From assembly GCF_033558715.1 (NCBI RefSeq), contig NZ_CP114606.1, forward strand, positions 558,001-622,000: a stretch of DNA of 64,000 nucleotides, read 5' to 3'. The stretch is from Acinetobacter sp. YWS30-1 (GTDB taxonomy: Bacteria > Pseudomonadota > Gammaproteobacteria > Pseudomonadales > Moraxellaceae). This document shows positions 25,595 to 35,216 of this stretch, in pieces. Made by a program: the position numbers and the translations under genes. Every line of letters starts with the position of its first letter. The stretch's first letter is position 1. The notes beneath the pieces were generated by a model that saw nothing but the letters and a program-made list of their open reading frames with translations, had not been told where the DNA came from and did not search any database.

Positions 25595-26662
25595 ATGAAA
25601 AAATTCACAAAATTGGCTTTAGCTGCTTCAGTTGCTTTTAGTGCAAACGCAATGGCGATGCAATCACTGGACGATGCATCTCTAAGCGCGACTACAGGTC
25701 AGGACGGTTTGAAAATCGGTATCGGTATTTCAAAAATTGAAATTGAAAAACTATTTATCCATGATAATGATGGTTTAGCTGAAGATTCTACTGCAACAGC
25801 GGGTGTTATTGAAATTTATAATAATGATGGAGTTGTTCTTCGCCCTGGAGAGGCTGCTAAGGGTATTGTGGGTGGTACTGGTGAAGCAGGTGCGATCTAT
25901 ATCAAAGCAAATGGTAAAGGTAGAACAACAGCTAATGGTATCGTGATTGGTGCAAACTACGATGACAATGGTGCGTATTTACTAGCTTCACGTAACCTTG
26001 CAGATTTAACCATTGACTCAGATGCTGGTGCTGGTAACCCGTTTATCAACATTGCAGCAGAAGTATCTGGCTTAGATATCAACATCGGTGAAATTGGGGT
26101 TGTGGGATCAGCTTCATCTCTTACAGATTATGAAAGTGGTTTAGCTTCAGCTACTAGTATTCGCCGTGGTGGTGCTGGTAAGGAAAATGCGATTTTATCT
26201 GGCCTATCACTTAAAACAGGTCCAATGTCTGCCAATATTCAATTAGGTGCTGCTCCACAGGGTGCAATGATTAAGTTGAATGCAACAATGACTGGCGGCT
26301 TAACAATTACAGATTTGGGTATTTTCGATAACTCAACAGCTGGTCAACAAGTTGCTACAGGTGTAAACACCTCAGGCCCAGGTGAAATCTTCATTGAAAG
26401 CATCAAGTTAACCGATGCTGGTACTAAAGATTTGACATTGAACCAAAGCATCAGTGTATTTGGCGAATCAACTGCAAACGATGGTTTCATTCGTATTGTG
26501 AGTACAAGTGGTGCACATGATAACTATGTGAAAGGTATTCACCTAGGTAGCCAAAATGCAGCATCAATTGGTGATATGGAAATCCAAGGTCTGCAAACTT
26601 ACTTTAGCCCTGGAACTGGCCAATATGCAAAAGGTGCAATTATTACCATTTCTGGTCACTAA
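25595..26662 (+). CDS. filA: FilA-like secreted protein
   Basis: 355 aa with a good Shine-Dalgarno (GGGAGAG at 25581-25587). The Sec signal peptide (MKKFTKLALAASVAFSANAMA) is probably cut after residue 21. The mature N terminus has an LDDASLSATTGQDGL motif; this short motif recurs in a family of exported proteins of Acinetobacter and relatives. The rest is Gly/Ala/Thr/Ile-rich, low in charge and beta-prone, with no Cys, as for a secreted structural or surface protein. It is first of six co-directional genes but has its own strong terminator, suggesting a higher transcript level than the rest. The fil naming is by recall of Acinetobacter annotations; no pilin features are visible. Confidence 0.65.
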   Translation: MKKFTKLALAASVAFSANAMAMQSLDDASLSATTGQDGLKIGIGISKIEIEKLFIHDNDGLAEDSTATAGVIEIYNNDGVVLRPGEAAKGIVGGTGEAGAIYIKANGKGRTTANGIVIGANYDDNGAYLLASRNLADLTIDSDAGAGNPFINIAAEVSGLDINIGEIGVVGSASSLTDYESGLASATSIRRGGAGKENAILSGLSLKTGPMSANIQLGAAPQGAMIKLNATMTGGLTITDLGIFDNSTAGQQVATGVNTSGPGEIFIESIKLTDAGTKDLTLNQSISVFGESTANDGFIRIVSTSGAHDNYVKGIHLGSQNAASIGDMEIQGLQTYFSPGTGQYAKGAIITISGH

Positions 26663-26672
26663 TTTTTACCTT

Positions 26673-26703
26673 AAAAAAGCGCGTGTTTACACGCGCTTTT
26701 TTT
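26673..26703 (+). terminator. Strong terminator between filA and filB
   Basis: A GC-rich perfect 8-bp stem (26679-26686 with 26689-26696) is extended by A6/T7. Genes filB-F must be reached by readthrough or a separate promoter. Confidence 0.9.
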
Positions 26704-26851
26704 ATGACTACAACATCTATCTAAAAAAATAAAAAAAGACTGTATTTTTTTGAAAAAGAAGGTATCTTTCTAGTTACAGGGAAGTAGAGTGAAGACTCTA
26801 TAAAAAGAAAAATTAGGCACATCATGCCAATGATAAGAAAAGTAAAAGAAT

Positions 26852-27685
26852 ATGTTAGAGATTGCATTGGGCTCGGCATTGATGTATTACGCTGCCAAAG
26901 AAGCTCTGGATATTAAAAAACAGCCACCAGGCGCTGTTCACTATACTGAAGTTCTTGATTCAAGAAATGATTCTTTCGTACGTATGCACCGCGAACATGT
27001 GGAAGTCAAACCTGCACTGTTAGACCAGTTTCAGGGGATTGTGCGTCAGGCTTACGATTATAGTTGTGGTTCAGCAGCACTTACGACTTTATTAAATGGC
27101 TATGTGGGTACTCGGCTGGATGAGCAGCAAGTCATGAATGGCCTAATGAAATTTGGTGAAACGGATAAAATCATCGAACGTCGTAGCTTTTCCCTTCTTG
27201 ATATGAAGCGTTTTGTTGCTGCCTTAGGCCTGGAAAGTGGTGGCTATCGCGGAGAATTTGAAGATCTGGTTAAACAGGGACAACCCGCCATTGTTCCTAT
27301 TTCCTATGCAGGATTTAAACATTTTGTCGTGTACAAAGCTTATAAAAATGGACGGGTGTATGTTGCCGATCCAGCACTGGGTAATATCAGTTTTGATGAA
27401 CAGCGATTTAAGGAAGTTTGGGAAAACAATACTTTATATTTAATTAATGTTCCTGAACAATATCGAAAAAACTTTTTGGCATTAAAAGAGTCGGATATGC
27501 GTCATGTCGAAGATGCAACCATTAACCGTTATGCTTTAGTTGATATGCAGTATCCACAGTTCTATATGGATAAAATTGCCGATAAAGCATCGACCATCCG
27601 CATGGATCGTAACCGTAATGTAGATTCAGAAAAATTTGGGGAATATCAATATAATTTTCTCAGACTTTATTACAAGAATAAATAA
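26852..27685 (+). CDS. filB: FilB-like C39-family peptidase domain protein
   Basis: 277 aa. The N terminus is a short hydrophobic helix (MLEIALGSALMYYAA), an anchor or signal. A peptidase C39-like domain spans about 60-200. The catalytic Cys is in YDYSCGSAALTTLL, His in KHFVVYK and Asp in VADPALG, the three C39 positions. C39 peptidases cut leader peptides, classically after GG. There is no ABC transporter domain here, unlike bacteriocin exporters. The C-terminal 80 residues are not recognised. It is followed 44 bp later by the filC start. The Shine-Dalgarno is weak. Confidence 0.7.
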   Translation: MLEIALGSALMYYAAKEALDIKKQPPGAVHYTEVLDSRNDSFVRMHREHVEVKPALLDQFQGIVRQAYDYSCGSAALTTLLNGYVGTRLDEQQVMNGLMKFGETDKIIERRSFSLLDMKRFVAALGLESGGYRGEFEDLVKQGQPAIVPISYAGFKHFVVYKAYKNGRVYVADPALGNISFDEQRFKEVWENNTLYLINVPEQYRKNFLALKESDMRHVEDATINRYALVDMQYPQFYMDKIADKASTIRMDRNRNVDSEKFGEYQYNFLRLYYKNK

Positions 27686-27729
27686 AACGAAAAGATGGCT
27701 ATAGAAAAATTAAAAATGGTGAAATGGAT

Positions 27730-28977
27730 ATGAACAGTAAATGGATGAACAAGACATTCTTGGCGCTCAGCATTCAGATGGTCATGGGAGTGGCATGGGC
27801 TGCGGATGAGCCTGAACTGGGTGAGTATGAAACGGTTGAGGAAGAAGTAGTCGAGACTGCTGCATCCGTTGATATTCAGCCTGAACCAGCAGCAACTCAA
27901 GCTGTAGAAGAACCTGAACTTGGGGGGTATGAAACAGTTCAGGAGGAAGCTGTAGCAGAGCCTGAACTGGGAGGATATGAAACCGTTCAGGAAGAAGTTG
28001 TTGTTGAAACAGCTGCACCTGCTGAAGCTCCAGCCACTCAAGCAGTAGATGCATCTCAAGCCTTACAGAAAAAAGAAGGAGATGCTACTCAGGAAGCAAG
28101 TCTAGAAGAAGTATTTACTTCAAATGAGCGTCAATACTCACTTATTAAACAAGGCGAAATTTCATCCTATTACGATATTGATTATACCTATTATCGAGAT
28201 ACACAACTCGATATGGAAATGGCACAGGGCCAGTTGTATCAGCTCCGTGTTCAGGAAAATGCAACACATAGCCTGACCAATACTTTCACTTTTCAGTACG
28301 GGGTGAAAGATAACCTGACCTTAACAGCTTCCTTACCTTTAGTGGCTAAAACAGATTTATTAAAAGATACCTCTACAGCAGGATTAGGGGATATTAGTCT
28401 AGGTGCACGTTGGGAGCCATTCCCTTTAAAAGCAGGTCGTTTACCACTTATTTTATTTGCCAATTTGTCGACTAAAACAGGTGATAGCCCATATGAAATT
28501 AATGCAGCAAAAGATCTGGCTGCAGGTAAGGGGTATTACTCAGCAGGTGTAGGGGCGAGTACACGTAAATATATTGATCCAGTGGTGCTATTTGCCTCTG
28601 TTTCTGCAAATTATGGGTTTAAGGAATCAGGCTTAGATCAGCGTCGTGGTACACGAATTATTGAAGAATTTGAACCAGGAATTAGTGGTGGTTTCGCTTT
28701 CGGTTTTGCTTATTCATTTAACTATGATGTTTCCATGACTATGTCTTATCAGCAAAGCTTTAATACTGGTGCCGAATTTAAGTATCACACGGGTGAAAGC
28801 TATTCAGCCGCTGATCAGACTAGCTCGACTTTTGCGATTTCTTTAGGAGTGCGTGTATCCCCAGAAACCATTGTAAATGGTACGGTCGGATTAGGGCTGA
28901 CCGAAGATGCACCAGATGTTTCACTGGGACTTTCATTCCCACTTGATATTTTAGGTTTCGGTAAGAAATTCAGTTAA
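27730..28977 (+). CDS. filC: FilC-like outer-membrane beta-barrel protein with N-terminal repeats
   Basis: 415 aa from ATG 27730, which is better spaced from GGTGA (27718-27722) than ATG 27724. It has a signal peptide ending near GVAWA-AD. Residues about 27-110 hold three imperfect acidic repeats of the type EPELGGYETVQEE. The last about 270 residues alternate hydrophobic and polar strands (FTFQYGVKDNLTLTASLPLV, GLGDISLGARWEPF) like a transporter-type outer-membrane barrel. No known substrate. It sits 12 bp before filD in one operon. Confidence 0.65.
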   Translation: MNSKWMNKTFLALSIQMVMGVAWAADEPELGEYETVEEEVVETAASVDIQPEPAATQAVEEPELGGYETVQEEAVAEPELGGYETVQEEVVVETAAPAEAPATQAVDASQALQKKEGDATQEASLEEVFTSNERQYSLIKQGEISSYYDIDYTYYRDTQLDMEMAQGQLYQLRVQENATHSLTNTFTFQYGVKDNLTLTASLPLVAKTDLLKDTSTAGLGDISLGARWEPFPLKAGRLPLILFANLSTKTGDSPYEINAAKDLAAGKGYYSAGVGASTRKYIDPVVLFASVSANYGFKESGLDQRRGTRIIEEFEPGISGGFAFGFAYSFNYDVSMTMSYQQSFNTGAEFKYHTGESYSAADQTSSTFAISLGVRVSPETIVNGTVGLGLTEDAPDVSLGLSFPLDILGFGKKFS

Positions 28978-28989
28978 TAGGGGTGTCGT

Positions 28990-30654
28990 ATGAAAAACAT
29001 TCGACTTAGCCCGTTATTAACAGGAATTATTCTTGCGGGCTGTTCAAGTTATACCTTTGCACAATTAGGGACCAACCTTTCTGTTGACCTGCGTGCATTG
29101 TCTATGGGGAACGCAGTTACTGCAGATCCGCCAGGAGTGAATGCAATTCACTTTAACCCGGCTGCATTGGCTAAAATTGAAGGCTTACAAACCGAACAGC
29201 AAATTATTGTTGCGAACTTTGATATTCAGCGTGAATTTACGGTTCCTGCTGGATATAACGTTTTTGGTTATTCAGATGATCCAATGGTCTGTAATGATGG
29301 ACCTGAAGTGTCTTCTGATTTATGTACAGATTTTAAGGGCCCAGTGAAGGGTGATGTAGAGTATGTCAGTCTCTACGTACCAATTTTGAAAAAAATGGTG
29401 GATTTGGGTGAAGGCCTCCCGATGGCAGCACCTACCATGGGGGTCTCTTATAAACCACCAGGCTCTAAAGCAACTTATGCAACTGCCGTTTATGCACCAC
29501 TAGTGGCAGGTTTTGGTCATGAAGATGGTAATCCTGCCAATTTTATGGGACAACAGGTTGCTCTGGAGCGGATTACATATTTATCTCCATCAATTGGTTA
29601 TGAAGTCAACGACCAGCTTTCGATTGGTGCTTCAATCGGGATGTCTTATCAAGCCATTGCCATGAAAACAGATTTACGTTTTCCCAATGAGCTGATTGGC
29701 ATGTTGCGTATGATTGATGAAGTCGTATGTACACCATTTAAAGAAAATTCTGACATCATTACTGATATCTTGTTGCTCGGGATCTGTAATGCTGATGAAG
29801 GAATGAACCCATTTGGTAAATTTGGCCAAATGCAACTTTCATTAGAACAAAATTTAAGTCCAAGCTATAACCTGGGTGTTCTATGGGAGCCTACTGAAGA
29901 TTTCAGTTTTGGTATGGTTTACCAGAGTGCTGCCAAAATGCGCTTAAAAGGTAAATATCATATCGATAATGCCAAAGCACCACAGGAAATGATTAAAGGT
30001 CTGATGACCTCCCCAACTGGCCAGATTTTAGCTGCAATTCTTGGTTTTCCAAATTATATCCCTTCAAGTGAATCGGGTCTGGTTTCCATGGATTTCGAAT
30101 ACCCAGCTCACTTTCAGGCGGGGATCAAATATAAGGTAATGCCAGATCTACAAGTCAATTTTGATATTGGCTGGACAGATTATGCTGCTTGGGACCAATT
30201 CAAGTTTGAGTTCGACCGTACCCTGTCTGCCTTGAAGATTGCCAAACTGTTATCTGCCAATGTAACGGATTCTTCACTTGCATTACCGCTTAGGTTTGAG
30301 TCGCCATGGAACTTCGGGATCGGAGTAGAGTATTCAGCAACTGACCGACTGAAACTTCGTGCTGGCTATGAACCACGTACCAGTGCCATTCCAAAAGATA
30401 AACGCAATACTATGGTACCGATTAATGGTGCGCAGCTATTTGGTTTAGGAGTGGGCTACCGTTTTGACGCAGATACGGATCTGGATCTATCTATTGGTTT
30501 CTTACGCAGTAAAGATAATATTCCAGCAAATACCAGTAGCCTAGCGAACCAGACCGGGGTAAATAACCTGTTACTGAATCCATATGCAGGCTTGAATGTC
30601 AAAACAGATACCAAGATCACAATTTTAGGTTTGAACTATCGCACCCGTTGGTAA
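28990..30654 (+). CDS. filD: FilD-like OmpP1/FadL/TodX-family outer-membrane protein
   Basis: 554 aa, exported. The signal carries both an LAGC lipobox-like motif (Cys18) and a signal-peptidase I site after TFA, so processing is uncertain. The mature N-terminal LRALSMGNAVTADPPGVNAIHFNPAAL is typical of FadL-type barrels (an AxxxxxxxAxxxNPA plug region). Strand-like segments follow (LQVNFDIGWTDY, LKLRAGYEPRTSAIP, YRFDADTDLDLSIGF). FadL proteins take up long-chain fatty acids or other hydrophobics; in this operon it may instead be a surface or secretion component. Confidence 0.75.
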   Translation: MKNIRLSPLLTGIILAGCSSYTFAQLGTNLSVDLRALSMGNAVTADPPGVNAIHFNPAALAKIEGLQTEQQIIVANFDIQREFTVPAGYNVFGYSDDPMVCNDGPEVSSDLCTDFKGPVKGDVEYVSLYVPILKKMVDLGEGLPMAAPTMGVSYKPPGSKATYATAVYAPLVAGFGHEDGNPANFMGQQVALERITYLSPSIGYEVNDQLSIGASIGMSYQAIAMKTDLRFPNELIGMLRMIDEVVCTPFKENSDIITDILLLGICNADEGMNPFGKFGQMQLSLEQNLSPSYNLGVLWEPTEDFSFGMVYQSAAKMRLKGKYHIDNAKAPQEMIKGLMTSPTGQILAAILGFPNYIPSSESGLVSMDFEYPAHFQAGIKYKVMPDLQVNFDIGWTDYAAWDQFKFEFDRTLSALKIAKLLSANVTDSSLALPLRFESPWNFGIGVEYSATDRLKLRAGYEPRTSAIPKDKRNTMVPINGAQLFGLGVGYRFDADTDLDLSIGFLRSKDNIPANTSSLANQTGVNNLLLNPYAGLNVKTDTKITILGLNYRTRW

Positions 30655-30661
30655 GGAAGAA

Positions 30662-31846
30662 ATGATCAGAACAGGGAACTTAGGGATAAAAATGGTACTG
30701 GCATTAAGTCTGGTACCATGGTCTTTTTATACAAATGCCAGAGAGTTTATTACGATCATTGGGCCCGATGGGCGACCATTAGTTGTGCCACGTCAAAATA
30801 ATGAGCAGAAAGAAACAACAAAAAACCAAGCGGCCACTACTCCGAAAAAATTGACTACGCCCGTTACATCTACTGCACAGGATCTGAAAAAATCCGAGCC
30901 AAAGGCGGTGGAAAAAAGTGTGACAACAGGTGAGCAAAAAAATAATATGGTTGTACAACCAGTACAACCAGTACAACCAGTACAACCAGTACAACCAGTA
31001 CAACCAGTACAACCAGTACAACCAGTACAACCAGTACAACCAACTAAACACGTTGAGTCTAGATTACCGCAACAATTACCACCAGTGGCACAGCCTCAAA
31101 TCTATGAACCTGTCATTCAGACAGTACCTGATCCTGTTCAAAAACAGGGTTTCAGTCAGATTGAAGGTGTGGAATATGTGGATAGTGAATATCTGGAAAA
31201 TAAAGAATTTAATCTGGAAGGTAAAAAACGTTTCTACAGCATGCCTGAAGGGATAGTTGATAAAAATATTGGGTCAACACGTGTACAGACGATTGAGCGT
31301 GAAAAAGGAGTGGGACAGTCGATTATAAAATCCTTGTTTCAGCAACCTGCTGTAGATTCTGGTCCAGTCGTACTGGCCCAAACCTACTACCGTATTTCTC
31401 AGCCTGAATCTGTAGAAAGCTTAGGTAAGCAGTGTTTTAAAGATAAAAAAGTTAAGAATGCGAAAGAGATTAGTGCAGGTAAATCCATTAATCTGTGGCC
31501 ACGGGCACCGCTGAAATCAGATGAGTTTGATTATGAAATTGTGAAGCTAAAATCTGATATTAAAAATATTCAGATTCAGTCTTATGCTTCCCGTCAGAAT
31601 AATCCTGCCTATTACTGGCCATTTGTTGTATTTCTGGATGAACGAGGCTGTGTTTTAGAAGGGGCGGGCGGTTTTAAAAATCAGGAAGCACAAGCCAATA
31701 TTATTCAACATGAGAAGATACAGGGAATTATTCAGATTCCTGCGCAAAGCCAATATGTATTAATGACCCCACTCGCTTCAGCCATAGATGTTGAAGACAA
31801 GATGCTGACAAATTATGGACAACTAAAACTAGTCGCCATTCGATAA
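30662..31846 (+). CDS. filE: FilE-like exported protein with (VQP)n repeats
   Basis: 394 aa. Signal peptide through about FYTNA-RE. After a Thr/Lys/Gln-rich segment comes a run of ten perfect VQP tripeptides encoded by ten 9-bp GTACAACCA units (30953-31042). This Pro-rich rigid linker is like those that span the periplasm in TonB or cell-wall proteins. The C-terminal 200 residues (from about VEYVDSEYLENKEF) have no domain I recognise; they contain two Cys, in GKQCF and ERGCV, which could pair. It is 7 bp after filD. Confidence 0.65.
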   Translation: MIRTGNLGIKMVLALSLVPWSFYTNAREFITIIGPDGRPLVVPRQNNEQKETTKNQAATTPKKLTTPVTSTAQDLKKSEPKAVEKSVTTGEQKNNMVVQPVQPVQPVQPVQPVQPVQPVQPVQPVQPTKHVESRLPQQLPPVAQPQIYEPVIQTVPDPVQKQGFSQIEGVEYVDSEYLENKEFNLEGKKRFYSMPEGIVDKNIGSTRVQTIEREKGVGQSIIKSLFQQPAVDSGPVVLAQTYYRISQPESVESLGKQCFKDKKVKNAKEISAGKSINLWPRAPLKSDEFDYEIVKLKSDIKNIQIQSYASRQNNPAYYWPFVVFLDERGCVLEGAGGFKNQEAQANIIQHEKIQGIIQIPAQSQYVLMTPLASAIDVEDKMLTNYGQLKLVAIR

Positions 31847-31867
31847 GGACGATTCGAGTAGAATAAG

Positions 31868-33802
31868 ATGAAAAATAAAATATTATATCCATTTGCTTTC
31901 ACTGCTTTATTTGCCGCCCTCAGCGGATGCGGAGGTGAAAGTGCGAATGTCATACCAGAACAAAATGATGAAGCCACCACGAACGGTTCATGCTCTGCTA
32001 CTGCAACGAATTGTCTGGAATGGGGGCTTGAATATCCAATTGATGGTCTTAATTTTAATTGTAGTGGTGATAAAGAAAATACCTTTATTACTTTATTTGA
32101 CCAAAATGATGGGGTGGCGTCAGGTACTTGTCAAAAAGCAGATAGTATTGAATTTTATCTGAAAAGTTTTAGTGATACCAAAATCAAATTGGGTACTGTG
32201 AAGCTTTCTGAATATATGAACCTCAGTACATCGAGTCAATTACCCCGACTAAGTGTACTTGATATTGCCAAGGGAATTACTGGTCGTAATATTGCCAGAA
32301 TCGAACAGACAGATCCAACCGTACAGGTGGCGATGAAACTGGTCAAAATCTGGCAGACCTTGGCACTGGAAAAAGGCCGTATCTATAATCCGACGGATGT
32401 ACAGCCCTTGTATATCACAGAAGATATGCGAAAGAATCTGGGCAAAATTAATAAAGATATCAGCCTGACAGATGCAAATTTGGCAGAAATCCTTAAACCT
32501 TTTATTGATATTAGCCAGATTAGTGATGATCAGGCCTTTGAAGTTGTAAAAAAACTGGCCAATATTGCCAGCGCAGCAGTATATCAACCGGAATTTTCTC
32601 TGTTCTCAACTTCAGGCATTATTAGCAGTAACTTGACTGGTTCTGATGGTCTGGCGGGTTGTAATAAATCTGTATGTGACATTAAAGATAAAACGACTAA
32701 ATATTTATTTGGACATTTTATCCTGATTACAGACCGCCAGGGTTATACCTTCGGCAGTGGACTACAGTGGCGCGATACCCAATTAAAACTGGGCTCCAAT
32801 AATCTGGGATCTTTGGGTGGCATTAATGCGGAATTGATCCGTAAAGTCAAACCACAGCAAATTACGGCAGTACCGCAAACCAGTTGGATTAGCCCTGCCA
32901 CGAGAATGCTTTCATCAAATGCACCATATAAAATGAATGTGGCTAACAACAGCAATCCATTAGAAATTTACCAAGGTCGTTTGCTGAGCGATTATGTGAT
33001 TGCCGGTAAAGAAGCATTTTATAAGATGGCCACAGGTAAGACTGAACTCAGCGATGCTGATCGTGCCAGTCTTGGCTTATGGCGTTTTAATGCCGATGAT
33101 GACAACTATAGTGGCTCAATTGATCTTTATAAAATTTTCCCGATCAGCTATCTGGATCGTCAAGTCTTTAGAACAGCTGAAAATGTAGAGCCAGGTGAAG
33201 AATATATTTTCCCAATGTATGGCAACATGGAGTTTAAATTTAGCGAAAACTCAATTAGCCCTGTTACAGTGGGTGTTGTGATTGATAGTAATGGTGATGT
33301 GCGTACCAATATGCAGTCCGCGAGCAATCTTGCAACTGATAGCATTAATGGTTGCCAGGGAGATATCTTACCGGCTGGACTTAAAGACAATAACGGCGTT
33401 CAACAATATCGTCTCGGTACCTTAGGCCGTGCATTTATAGATGAAAAAACAGTATCTATGCGACTGGTCTTCGCTGATCCTGTATTTGGTTCATTAAATG
33501 GTGCCTTGGTAGGTATGAACTCCACTATTCAGGCTTCAACCAATACAGATGATAAGATTGTGATTGGTGGGGCATTACTCAATTTATCTAATGTATTGAA
33601 TGGAACCAGTCGTGTGGGCTTTACCAACTCAGCTGGAGAAAGTGTAGGCTGGGCAAATACTTATGCCAGCTTCCAGAAAGTCTATAACAACAATAATACT
33701 GATGAAACGACAGAAGAGACCAATCTGGCCAAGCTAAGTGGCGGAAGTGTTTCATTCAAATTAGCGGATTGTTATAACATCAAAACTAAAAACAAATCAT
33801 GA
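31868..33802 (+). CDS. filF: FilF-like surface lipoprotein
   Basis: 644 aa lipoprotein with lipobox LSGC (Cys at about residue 21), followed by GGES and an acidic spacer typical of outer-membrane or surface lipoproteins. About eight further Cys, several in close pairs (TATNC, NFNC, GTC; LAGCNKSVC), suggest disulfides in an exported domain. The C-terminal third is rich in Gly, Asn and Ser and beta-prone. I recognise no enzymatic motif. It is the last gene of the operon, and its terminator is split by an IS4 element. Confidence 0.65.
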   Translation: MKNKILYPFAFTALFAALSGCGGESANVIPEQNDEATTNGSCSATATNCLEWGLEYPIDGLNFNCSGDKENTFITLFDQNDGVASGTCQKADSIEFYLKSFSDTKIKLGTVKLSEYMNLSTSSQLPRLSVLDIAKGITGRNIARIEQTDPTVQVAMKLVKIWQTLALEKGRIYNPTDVQPLYITEDMRKNLGKINKDISLTDANLAEILKPFIDISQISDDQAFEVVKKLANIASAAVYQPEFSLFSTSGIISSNLTGSDGLAGCNKSVCDIKDKTTKYLFGHFILITDRQGYTFGSGLQWRDTQLKLGSNNLGSLGGINAELIRKVKPQQITAVPQTSWISPATRMLSSNAPYKMNVANNSNPLEIYQGRLLSDYVIAGKEAFYKMATGKTELSDADRASLGLWRFNADDDNYSGSIDLYKIFPISYLDRQVFRTAENVEPGEEYIFPMYGNMEFKFSENSISPVTVGVVIDSNGDVRTNMQSASNLATDSINGCQGDILPAGLKDNNGVQQYRLGTLGRAFIDEKTVSMRLVFADPVFGSLNGALVGMNSTIQASTNTDDKIVIGGALLNLSNVLNGTSRVGFTNSAGESVGWANTYASFQKVYNNNNTDETTEETNLAKLSGGSVSFKLADCYNIKTKNKS

Positions 33803-33825: not shown

Positions 33826-35216
33826 TAATGCCAGTCAGTTAAGAAATTGACTGGCATTTTCTTGGGTATTTCAGTGGTTTACCTTTCACAACTCTTGGGC
33901 AACTTCTAACCCTCCTCTCAGGCAAAACATACCTCCTAGATTTCTCCAGTAAACTTTCTAGATGTTTGGGTAAATTTCCTGCGGAGTCTAAAGAGTCGAA
34001 TCTTAATATATTAAGGATGCCGATAGATGCAATATGAAAGCTGATTCTCAAAGGACTGACTTTTGCACGTTGAGCCATATATTTCATTTGTCTTCTTAGA
34101 ATATTATAAGCAATGAAGACACCCCATAATTCTTGATAAATTAAATCAGGTTGCTTGCTCCTCAAATGCTTACTTTCCTGTAAATCACTTTTGATTTCTC
34201 GGTAACACATTTCTATTTCCCAGCGCTGAGCATAAAGCTTTGCTAAGGCTAGCAGTGGATATATCTTTGAATCTATTAATGAAGTGATATAGCGTCTAAT
34301 TTTTCCTGCCTGCTCAACTTCAATCAAACGCGCTTCCCAATAATCCCCTAATGTTGAATTCAGCTTCTTGGCTCTTGCTGATATTGGCATCCTGATATGA
34401 AAGTCATGCTGGGAATTACGCTTAATGATCTCATAGCGTAAATTATCTTTTGCGCGCATAAGCCAATGGCTTGCCTCTGCACGTGTTTGCCATCCTATTA
34501 GAAAATCAGCAGAAAAATAGGCTCGATCAAACAGAGTAATACTATGCGATGGAGGACATAATCGATTTGCCAGTGTAAGTTCACCTTGATCCATGCTACC
34601 TATTTGGGCATCAATGATTTCATGGGTGTTGGTATTCACCAGACAGGTTGCTCTCACTTGCGGATAAGGTGCTACCGCAGTTTTACCCTTAGATGAGCCA
34701 AAGTGTGCAAAATTCTCATCTGTATAAGGCATAGACCAAACCACCCCGTCAACAGCACATACACTAAGGCCATGAAAGTTTGAGTATTGCTGTTGGGATT
34801 CTTCAAACCAGGCTTGGCTGAGTAGAGAAAACAAGGCATTCAAGGGCTCTCGCCCTAAGCGTTGTCGTGCTTGTACTGCTGCACTGGGAACGCAATATTC
34901 TGTGGTACCAAACACAAGTTTTAGTTGCTCTACCACATACCCGATCGGTTGATCTCGAAACAGGGCAAGCCCAATCACCAGCCATACCACATGTTCGGCA
35001 GGTAATTTTCTTCTCCTGATAGAAGCCTTACCTGTTTGACGCAGGCTCTCTTCAATCCAATTTAAATCAATGAATTCACTGAAATGGCTAAGTGAAGGTA
35101 GAGAATGTTGAAGAGTACAATCTAAATTTTCAGATAAAGTCATAAAAAAATGAGCGTATTGGCATACACTCATTTTTACTACATTTTTCTAATGTCTGCT
35201 TAACTGACTGGCATTA
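33826..35216 (-). mobile_element. IS4-family insertion sequence, complete, with 11-bp target duplication
   Basis: 1,391 bp. Terminal inverted repeats begin TAATGCCAGTCAGTTAAG at both ends. It is flanked by the direct repeat CATCAAATGAT (33815-33825 and 35217-35227), the 10-12-bp duplication size expected of IS4. One intact transposase fills it. The intact IRs and identical duplication point to recent insertion. Confidence 0.93.
33839..35173 (-). CDS. IS4-family transposase
   Basis: 444 aa. DDE residues can be placed: first Asp in AVDGVVW, second in LFDRAYF, Glu in the Y-(2)-R-(3)-E-(6)-K signature YAQRWEIEMCYREIK. The N-terminal region (FIDLNWIEESLRQTG) fits the IS4 DNA-binding domain. It catalyses cut-and-paste movement of the surrounding element. 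Intact and presumably active. Confidence 0.93.
   Translation of the reverse strand: MSVCQYAHFFMTLSENLDCTLQHSLPSLSHFSEFIDLNWIEESLRQTGKASIRRRKLPAEHVVWLVIGLALFRDQPIGYVVEQLKLVFGTTEYCVPSAAVQARQRLGREPLNALFSLLSQAWFEESQQQYSNFHGLSVCAVDGVVWSMPYTDENFAHFGSSKGKTAVAPYPQVRATCLVNTNTHEIIDAQIGSMDQGELTLANRLCPPSHSITLFDRAYFSADFLIGWQTRAEASHWLMRAKDNLRYEIIKRNSQHDFHIRMPISARAKKLNSTLGDYWEARLIEVEQAGKIRRYITSLIDSKIYPLLALAKLYAQRWEIEMCYREIKSDLQESKHLRSKQPDLIYQELWGVFIAYNILRRQMKYMAQRAKVSPLRISFHIASIGILNILRFDSLDSAGNLPKHLESLLEKSRRYVLPERRVRSCPRVVKGKPLKYPRKCQSIS

Follow-up and report, generated by a model that had tools for sequence, protein, structure and literature searches.

In the Fap functional amyloid system, which combines the C39 peptidase FapD, the plugged outer-membrane barrel FapF and Sec-type cargo, the active-site Cys of FapD is reported to be required for secretion of FapC (Rouse et al., PMC5557850). 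The same work describes the target of FapD as unclear and recovered no peptides from the N-terminal ~70 residues of FapE; the substrate or role of FapD is likewise given as unclear in reviews from 2018, 2020 and 2022 (PMC6173800, PMC7764130, PMC9268375). Co-located fapD and fapF homologues are reported from five additional phyla outside Fap, in passages that mention neither a cargo or leader nor a Fil locus (PMC6173800). For C39 processing of double-glycine leaders, work on PCAT1 gave the substrate consensus L(-12)xxxE(-8)L(-7)xxxxG(-2)G(-1), in which positions -10 to -4 are helical and positions -7 and -12 form a hydrophobic knot (PMC6959990). Here we analysed 64,000 nucleotides of Acinetobacter sp. 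YWS30-1 (contig NZ_CP114606.1, positions 558,001 to 622,000; hereafter the window), in which a six-gene set, filA to filF (the Fil locus), occupies positions 25,595 to 33,802. We consider it likely that this locus encodes an export system of the FapD/FapF type with a cargo class of its own. The six genes are as follows (window positions).

25595..26662, + strand: filA, Sec signal, C39-type leader and 319-residue beta-rich cargo with a DUF6160 N-terminus; proposed secreted substrate
26852..27685, + strand: filB, FapD-type C39 peptidase with a hydrophobic N-terminus
27724..28977, + strand: filC, FapF-type outer-membrane barrel with a plug-like helix and a long low-confidence N-terminal linker
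28990..30654, + strand: filD, FadL/TodX-family outer-membrane barrel
30662..31846, + strand: filE, exported protein with an N-terminal 'ITIIGPDGRP' segment, a VQP linker and a C-terminal FilE_C domain related to MalM-like proteins
31868..33802, + strand: filF, large lipoprotein (lipobox ...LSGC-GGES, read by eye)

All six proteins scored above the cut-offs of the NCBIfam 'putative pilus' Fil models (NF050077-NF050081 and NF033645, all 'exception' models), in gene order. An earlier note on this DNA had described six genes, each product with an export signal or membrane helix, and this description held: the six open reading frames (ORFs) lie on one strand and, read by eye, FilA, FilC, FilD and FilE have Sec-type N-termini, FilB has a hydrophobic N-terminal segment and FilF a lipobox. 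The C39 peptidase, the two barrels (FilD FadL-like, FilC as modelled), the VQP linker and the Cys-rich lipoprotein (FilF, 9 Cys) that it had listed were likewise recovered. The nearest named relatives of FilA were Acinetobacter and A. variabilis proteins and, among named matches, that of FilC came from A. lwoffii. Read literally, the database names would make the locus a pilus assembly system, and papers refer to a type III pilus, as putative or as predicted (PMC5376624, PMC4256060). The names fit all six proteins, but the sequences give the pilus label no support. FilB and FilC belong to another export family and, Fil names aside, the Pfam and NCBIfam hits of the six include no pilin, chaperone, usher or type IV pilus family (no separate prepilin-motif scan was made), as the earlier note had also found. 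We therefore rejected the pilus reading, which we regard as extremely unlikely.

FilB is a firm homologue of FapD, and FilC of FapF. Profile comparison supported the C39 domain of FilB, whose catalytic set (Gln66, Cys72, His157 and Asp173, counted by hand) was invariant in all 15 FilB and FapD sequences aligned. FilB scored 109.3 bits against the FapD model (curated cut-off 330) and FilC 66.4 bits against the FapF model (curated cut-off 700), which makes each a homologue, with FilC of the same fold, and neither of them FapD or FapF itself. The window thus holds a FapD/FapF-type module in the broad sense, that is, a C39 peptidase with its catalytic residues kept, adjoining a barrel of the FapF fold. 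Given this homology, the earlier statement that the function of the locus is unexplained was too strong. Ahead of its barrel, where a counterpart of the periplasmic trimeric coiled coil of FapF would be expected, FilC carries a long stretch of low model confidence (monomer model only), in which, unlike in Fap, no long helix precedes the plug.

FilC was modelled as an outer-membrane barrel that lies nearer FapF than COG4313 by both sequence and fold; families absent from the VIA-align list for FilC carry no evidential weight. The nearness to FapF argues against a traffic in hydrophobic molecules, in which FadL-like FilD (Pfam Toluene_X, 2.2e-62) and a COG4313-like FilC would act with FilA as a secreted carrier and no protein would be exported. 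Moreover, FilC adjoins a C39 peptidase at 80/80 loci, a count that is partly circular since the loci were found through FilB, and, according to PMC6173800, no C39 peptidases had been reported alongside COG4313 pores. We hold this alternative to be very unlikely.

FilA begins with the Sec signal MKKFTKLALAASVAFSANAMA, followed by MQSLDDASLSATTGQ-DGL, and so carries a second, C39-type leader that the earlier note had missed.

25595..25657, + strand: FilA Sec signal peptide, residues 1-21; probable cut after AMA, judged by eye
25667..25702, + strand: FilA leader core LDDASLSATTGQ, residues 25-36; proposed FilB cut after Q36

With Gln36 as position -1, Leu-12, Leu-7 and Gly-2 fall into the C39-substrate register, whereas the consensus Glu-8 and Gly-1 are replaced by Ser-8 and Gln-1; the structure model of FilA (low confidence) places a helix at leader positions -10 to -3. 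FapE has the same register, but the leader ends in TGQ in Fil and mostly in RGR or RGG in Fap. Compared with double-glycine processing by peptidase-containing ATP-binding cassette (ABC) transporters and in bacteriocin systems (PCAT1, LahT, ComA), Fil shares the C39 domain, the hydrophobic -12 and -7 positions and Gly-2. It differs in that FilB has no ABC transporter part, the leader lies behind a Sec signal, position -1 is Gln and the cargo is large and beta-rich. Our search of open-licence papers found no statement of this leader or of a Fil-Fap link. Cleavage of the leader is a strong prediction.

Alternatively, the leader could stay in place as a conserved mature start or as a docking tag for a chaperone or FilC, with FilB acting elsewhere (for example on the FilC linker) or as a chaperone itself. 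The GQ end in place of GG or GA and the low-confidence stretch of FilC would suit this, as would the published record, in which Rouse et al. left cleavage of FapF by FapD open (PMC5557850) and chaperone-acting C39-like domains are described (PMC6173800). Against it stand the invariant catalytic residues, the need for the FapD Cys in FapC secretion (PMC5557850), a register that fits structurally defined C39 recognition and the presence of the leader on several unrelated cargo families (below). We judge an uncleaved leader to be unlikely.

In the export route that we propose, FilA would pass the inner membrane via Sec, and removal of the signal peptide would bare a short leader of some 15 residues that ends in LDDASLSATTG-Q. 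FilB, as a periplasmic-side C39 peptidase, would grip this leader through Leu-12 and Leu-7 and cut after Gly-Gln, upon which mature, beta-rich FilA would leave, probably unfolded, through FilC as a FapF-like plugged barrel. The FilB/FilC pair would also handle the leader-bearing proteins of an unlinked four-gene cluster in the same genome. FadL-like FilD and MalM-like FilE would be conserved helpers, and FilF, a lipoprotein whose orthologue depends on the type II secretion system (T2SS) for its placement, would probably anchor or decorate the product. Most likely, this product serves the pellicle or biofilm as a surface or matrix protein.

The model of FilA was beta-rich at a predicted local distance difference test (pLDDT) score of 53, with no PDB fold match at E <= 0.001, and we therefore make no claim about its fold; its sequence matched nothing in PDB at E 1. 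If FilA were itself an amyloid, Fil would, like Fap, be a functional amyloid system in the full sense. Such a system would be in keeping with the FapD and FapF homologues, the beta-rich (low-confidence) model and the association with pellicles and biofilms in papers (PMC5376624, PMC4256060, PMC7273844, PMC8792954). However, Asn makes up 6.3% and Gln 2.8% of mature FilA, a search of filA for tandem repeats gave none, and the leader at fap loci sits on FapE, in some loci also on FapB-like proteins, and was not seen on FapC (by eye). Pfam and NCBIfam gave no match to FapA, FapB or FapC among the six Fil proteins, so that the amyloid subunits, FapB and FapC with their Gln/Asn-rich repeats, are missing and true Fap membership was rejected; in their place Fil has DUF6160-type cargo, with FilD and FilE as extra components. 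An amyloid FilA thus appears distinctly unlikely.

The leader also occurred well away from filA. In the same genome, an unlinked cluster (G000:C1, L064 6348-12737; G, C and L are our labels for genomes, contigs and loci) holds a tandem array of four ORFs for exported proteins (494, 736, 238 and 674 residues) with the leaders LDDEALSAVDAQ, IEEQELGHITGQ, LDPQQMTAETGQ and LTDSSLSDTTGE, in that order. Their post-leader parts showed no BLAST similarity at 1e-3 to one another or to FilA; in the 238-residue protein and one L067 protein the regular expression marked a downstream stretch, and the tested part begins later there. Each of the four families recurs in G010 and G012, and G010 carries seven leader-bearing genes consecutively (L067). 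A common leader on unrelated cargo is the pattern expected of a modular processing tag. Close to Fil loci, DUF6160-type genes (L164, L167 and L169) or leader-bearing ORFs (L168) were found on the opposite strand.

At L072-L079, the exported gene adjoining fapD reads LKDQELATLRGR, LTDEEMGDMRGR, IPDPELNLMRGR, LDDTELNAMRGR and the like; NCBIfam identified this gene as FapE at L072, the one member of this series tested. Leaders at L081-L086 end in RGG, once alongside RGR, and Burkholderiales Fil loci contain the intermediate forms LPDSELATVRGA and LSDSEMSTVSGQ. Across the FapD-type loci L072-L086 a leader was present in 12/15 by regular expression and 15/15 by eye (L077, L078, L084 and L085 were read by eye, the automatic hits in L078 not being its FapE leader). 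Our leader lists are hand-picked distinct strings (11, 36 and 15), with frequent Acinetobacter variants and some fap-type ones omitted. The predicted FapE cut near residue 39 (L072) lies within the peptide-free stretch of ~70 residues reported in PMC5557850, not at its end.

On balance, we lean towards a general Gram-negative two-step export route, in which proteins with a Sec signal and a double-glycine-type leader would be processed by a stand-alone periplasmic C39 peptidase and then delivered through a FapF-type barrel. This route would serve amyloid accessory proteins (FapE), surface proteins of the DUF6160 type (FilA along with many unlinked relatives) and perhaps a plasmid product resembling a bacteriocin, with cut-site residues (R-3/R-1 in Fap, T-3/Q-1 in Fil) that match the peptidase clade. 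If so, FapE would be the missing FapD substrate and the named cut site a concrete answer to the question of the FapD target. The leader would also offer a sequence tag for finding candidate cargo across Pseudomonadales and Burkholderiales, where single genomes reach 14 DUF6160 matches (E <= 0.05). For a conserved Acinetobacter locus whose FilF has been studied as a vaccine antigen, a misleading 'pilus' label would give way to a testable export mechanism.

A 7.6-kb contig (C233 of G005; L024, 2992-6202) encodes a FapD-like C39 peptidase, a barrel-like protein of 291 residues and a 157-residue Sec-type protein with the leader LSNQEMKDTQGA and a weak match to a class IIb bacteriocin model (E 0.014), together with relaxase-like, Rep-like and toxin-antitoxin-like ORFs (by eye). 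This is possibly a plasmid bacteriocin on the same export route. L073 and L081 have two FapD genes apiece; L081 contains two almost identical units, and both of these include leader-bearing genes of their own.

Exported-like ORFs near FilB or FapD matched the leader expression more often (100/534) than distant ones (21/762; 103 loci, 72 with a hit). When a single locus represented each FilB cluster at 60% identity (21 loci, 13 with a hit), the counts were 30/134 versus 7/171 (p 1e-6). The expression was set after leaders of both kinds had been seen, so this enrichment is not independent; the ORFs include overlapping and spurious frames, and some hits look accidental. We take it as support, not proof. 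A position weight matrix built from 14 leaders (13 fap-type loci and plasmid-like L024) failed to generalise to Fil loci and was dropped; with training loci included, 37/103 loci reached at least 4 bits and 13/103 at least 12 bits.

Co-occurrence gave a second line of comparison. Among 299 genomes of the phylum, Fil-type FilB (at least 282 bits; next score 130) occurred in nine and DUF6160 in 11, namely the same nine, G302 (below the cut-off) and G230. None of the 16 genomes with only FapD-type peptidases contained DUF6160, which therefore tracks the Fil-type peptidase and not the whole family. Within the genus, all 80 FilB-positive genomes had at least two DUF6160 matches and 16/19 FilB-negative genomes had none. 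DUF6160 was also present above the family cut-off in 22/22 further FilB-bearing genomes (1 to 14 matches each at E <= 0.05), a sample comprising 20 of the 31 loci without an expression hit beside filB, L120 (doubtful hit) and G290.

Published expression data bear on the proposed product. The A. baumannii operon A1S_0690-0695 is reported to be highly produced in pellicle cells (PMC5376624, PMC4256060), FilF was raised in tabulated proteomic studies (PMC7273844) and, in strain SDF biofilm, FilC rose 71-fold and FilF 12-fold (PMC8792954). An abundant matrix role is weighed against by a pellicle-matrix study in which the abundant proteins are pilins and whose main text names neither A1S_0690, A1S_0695 nor FilF (PMC4216135), although PMC5376624 refers to this same study on pellicle production. 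As to co-occurrence, the three FilB-negative genomes with DUF6160 contained neither FilB nor FilC, so the link is not absolute. One of these exceptions, G116, was placed beside the FilB-positive G010 and G024 in a HisD tree, which suits a recent loss of the machine.

This tree covered 28 genomes (15/16 doubly negative, 2/3 exceptions, 10/80 positive and the outgroup G122; G012 had no marker match and the partial match of G030 was left unused). The negative label required six changes (5-8 in bootstraps), at least two of them forced, and it was also clustered, with 10/500 shuffles as low. By tblastn, nine of 12 negative or exception loci had pabB and nudA but no fil gene, and G095 (L232) retained a FilF-like stretch at 41% identity. 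A short C39-like ORF (175-192 residues) in G000, G010, G012, G035 and G095 was rejected as an explanation of the exceptions, since FilB-positive genomes have it too.

Across 80 named loci, FilB occurred in 80, FilC in 80, FilD in 79, FilE or a MalM-like protein in 73 and FilF in 25, counts that lean towards presence as the loci were recovered via FilB and the FilC model was partly, the FilE and MalM-like models wholly, built from them. We take 24 of the 25 FilF-type loci to be Moraxellaceae. Separation of the genes in other species, which would have spoken against a common system, was not seen: filB, filC and filD occur together in Pseudomonas, Marinobacter, Thalassolituus, Hahella, Alcanivorax relatives and Burkholderiales, in this order in most gene maps drawn (mapping missed FilB in some GC-rich loci). 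Of the earlier impression of a self-contained surface assembly or secretion system, the likeness to a secretion system stands, but not the self-containment, because the genome has further leader-bearing genes outside the locus and FilF reportedly relies on the T2SS; cargo beyond the operon and the restriction of FilF to 25/80 loci had escaped that reading. ORFs of ~865-907 residues, of MalT/LuxR type by eye, adjoin Pseudomonas and Marinobacter Fil loci (L088, L089, L090, L102, L104, L109 and L114) and are possible regulators.

FilE and the MalM-like set aligned over their full length (hhalign probability 97.3), and 2/2 proteins tested from that set matched Pfam MalM and, weakly, DUF4124. The linker of FilE is encoded by an exact repeat.

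30953..31042, + strand: 9-bp unit repeated 10 times, coding for the VQP linker in filE

Release of A. baumannii FilF is reported to require the T2SS components GspD and GspN (PMC12802150). At L021 (1665-6290), in a genome of the same order, an exported protein of 1541 residues with a weak internal DUF6160 match lies between filD and a FilE-like gene.

Two hairpins were recorded in the gap between filA and filB.

26681..26696, + strand: intrinsic-terminator-like hairpin right after filA, a GC-rich stem followed by a T run
26785..26800, + strand: second, small conserved hairpin TAGAGT...ACTCTA upstream of filB (coordinates counted by hand from the alignment)

The first was kept in all 12 sequences compared, one from the window and 11 drawn from the 23 named Acinetobacter loci, with some base pairs altered on both sides. 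Its position and T run suggest that filA may be expressed in excess over filB-F, which qualifies the earlier description of a six-gene operon. In Acinetobacter this gap also has an additional hairpin (26816-26828) and a conserved GTATCTT-like stretch. A plasmid search with the operon as query gave zero matches. Directly behind filF, a transposase-like ORF (33839-35173, - strand; by eye) separates the locus from a nudix-like gene.
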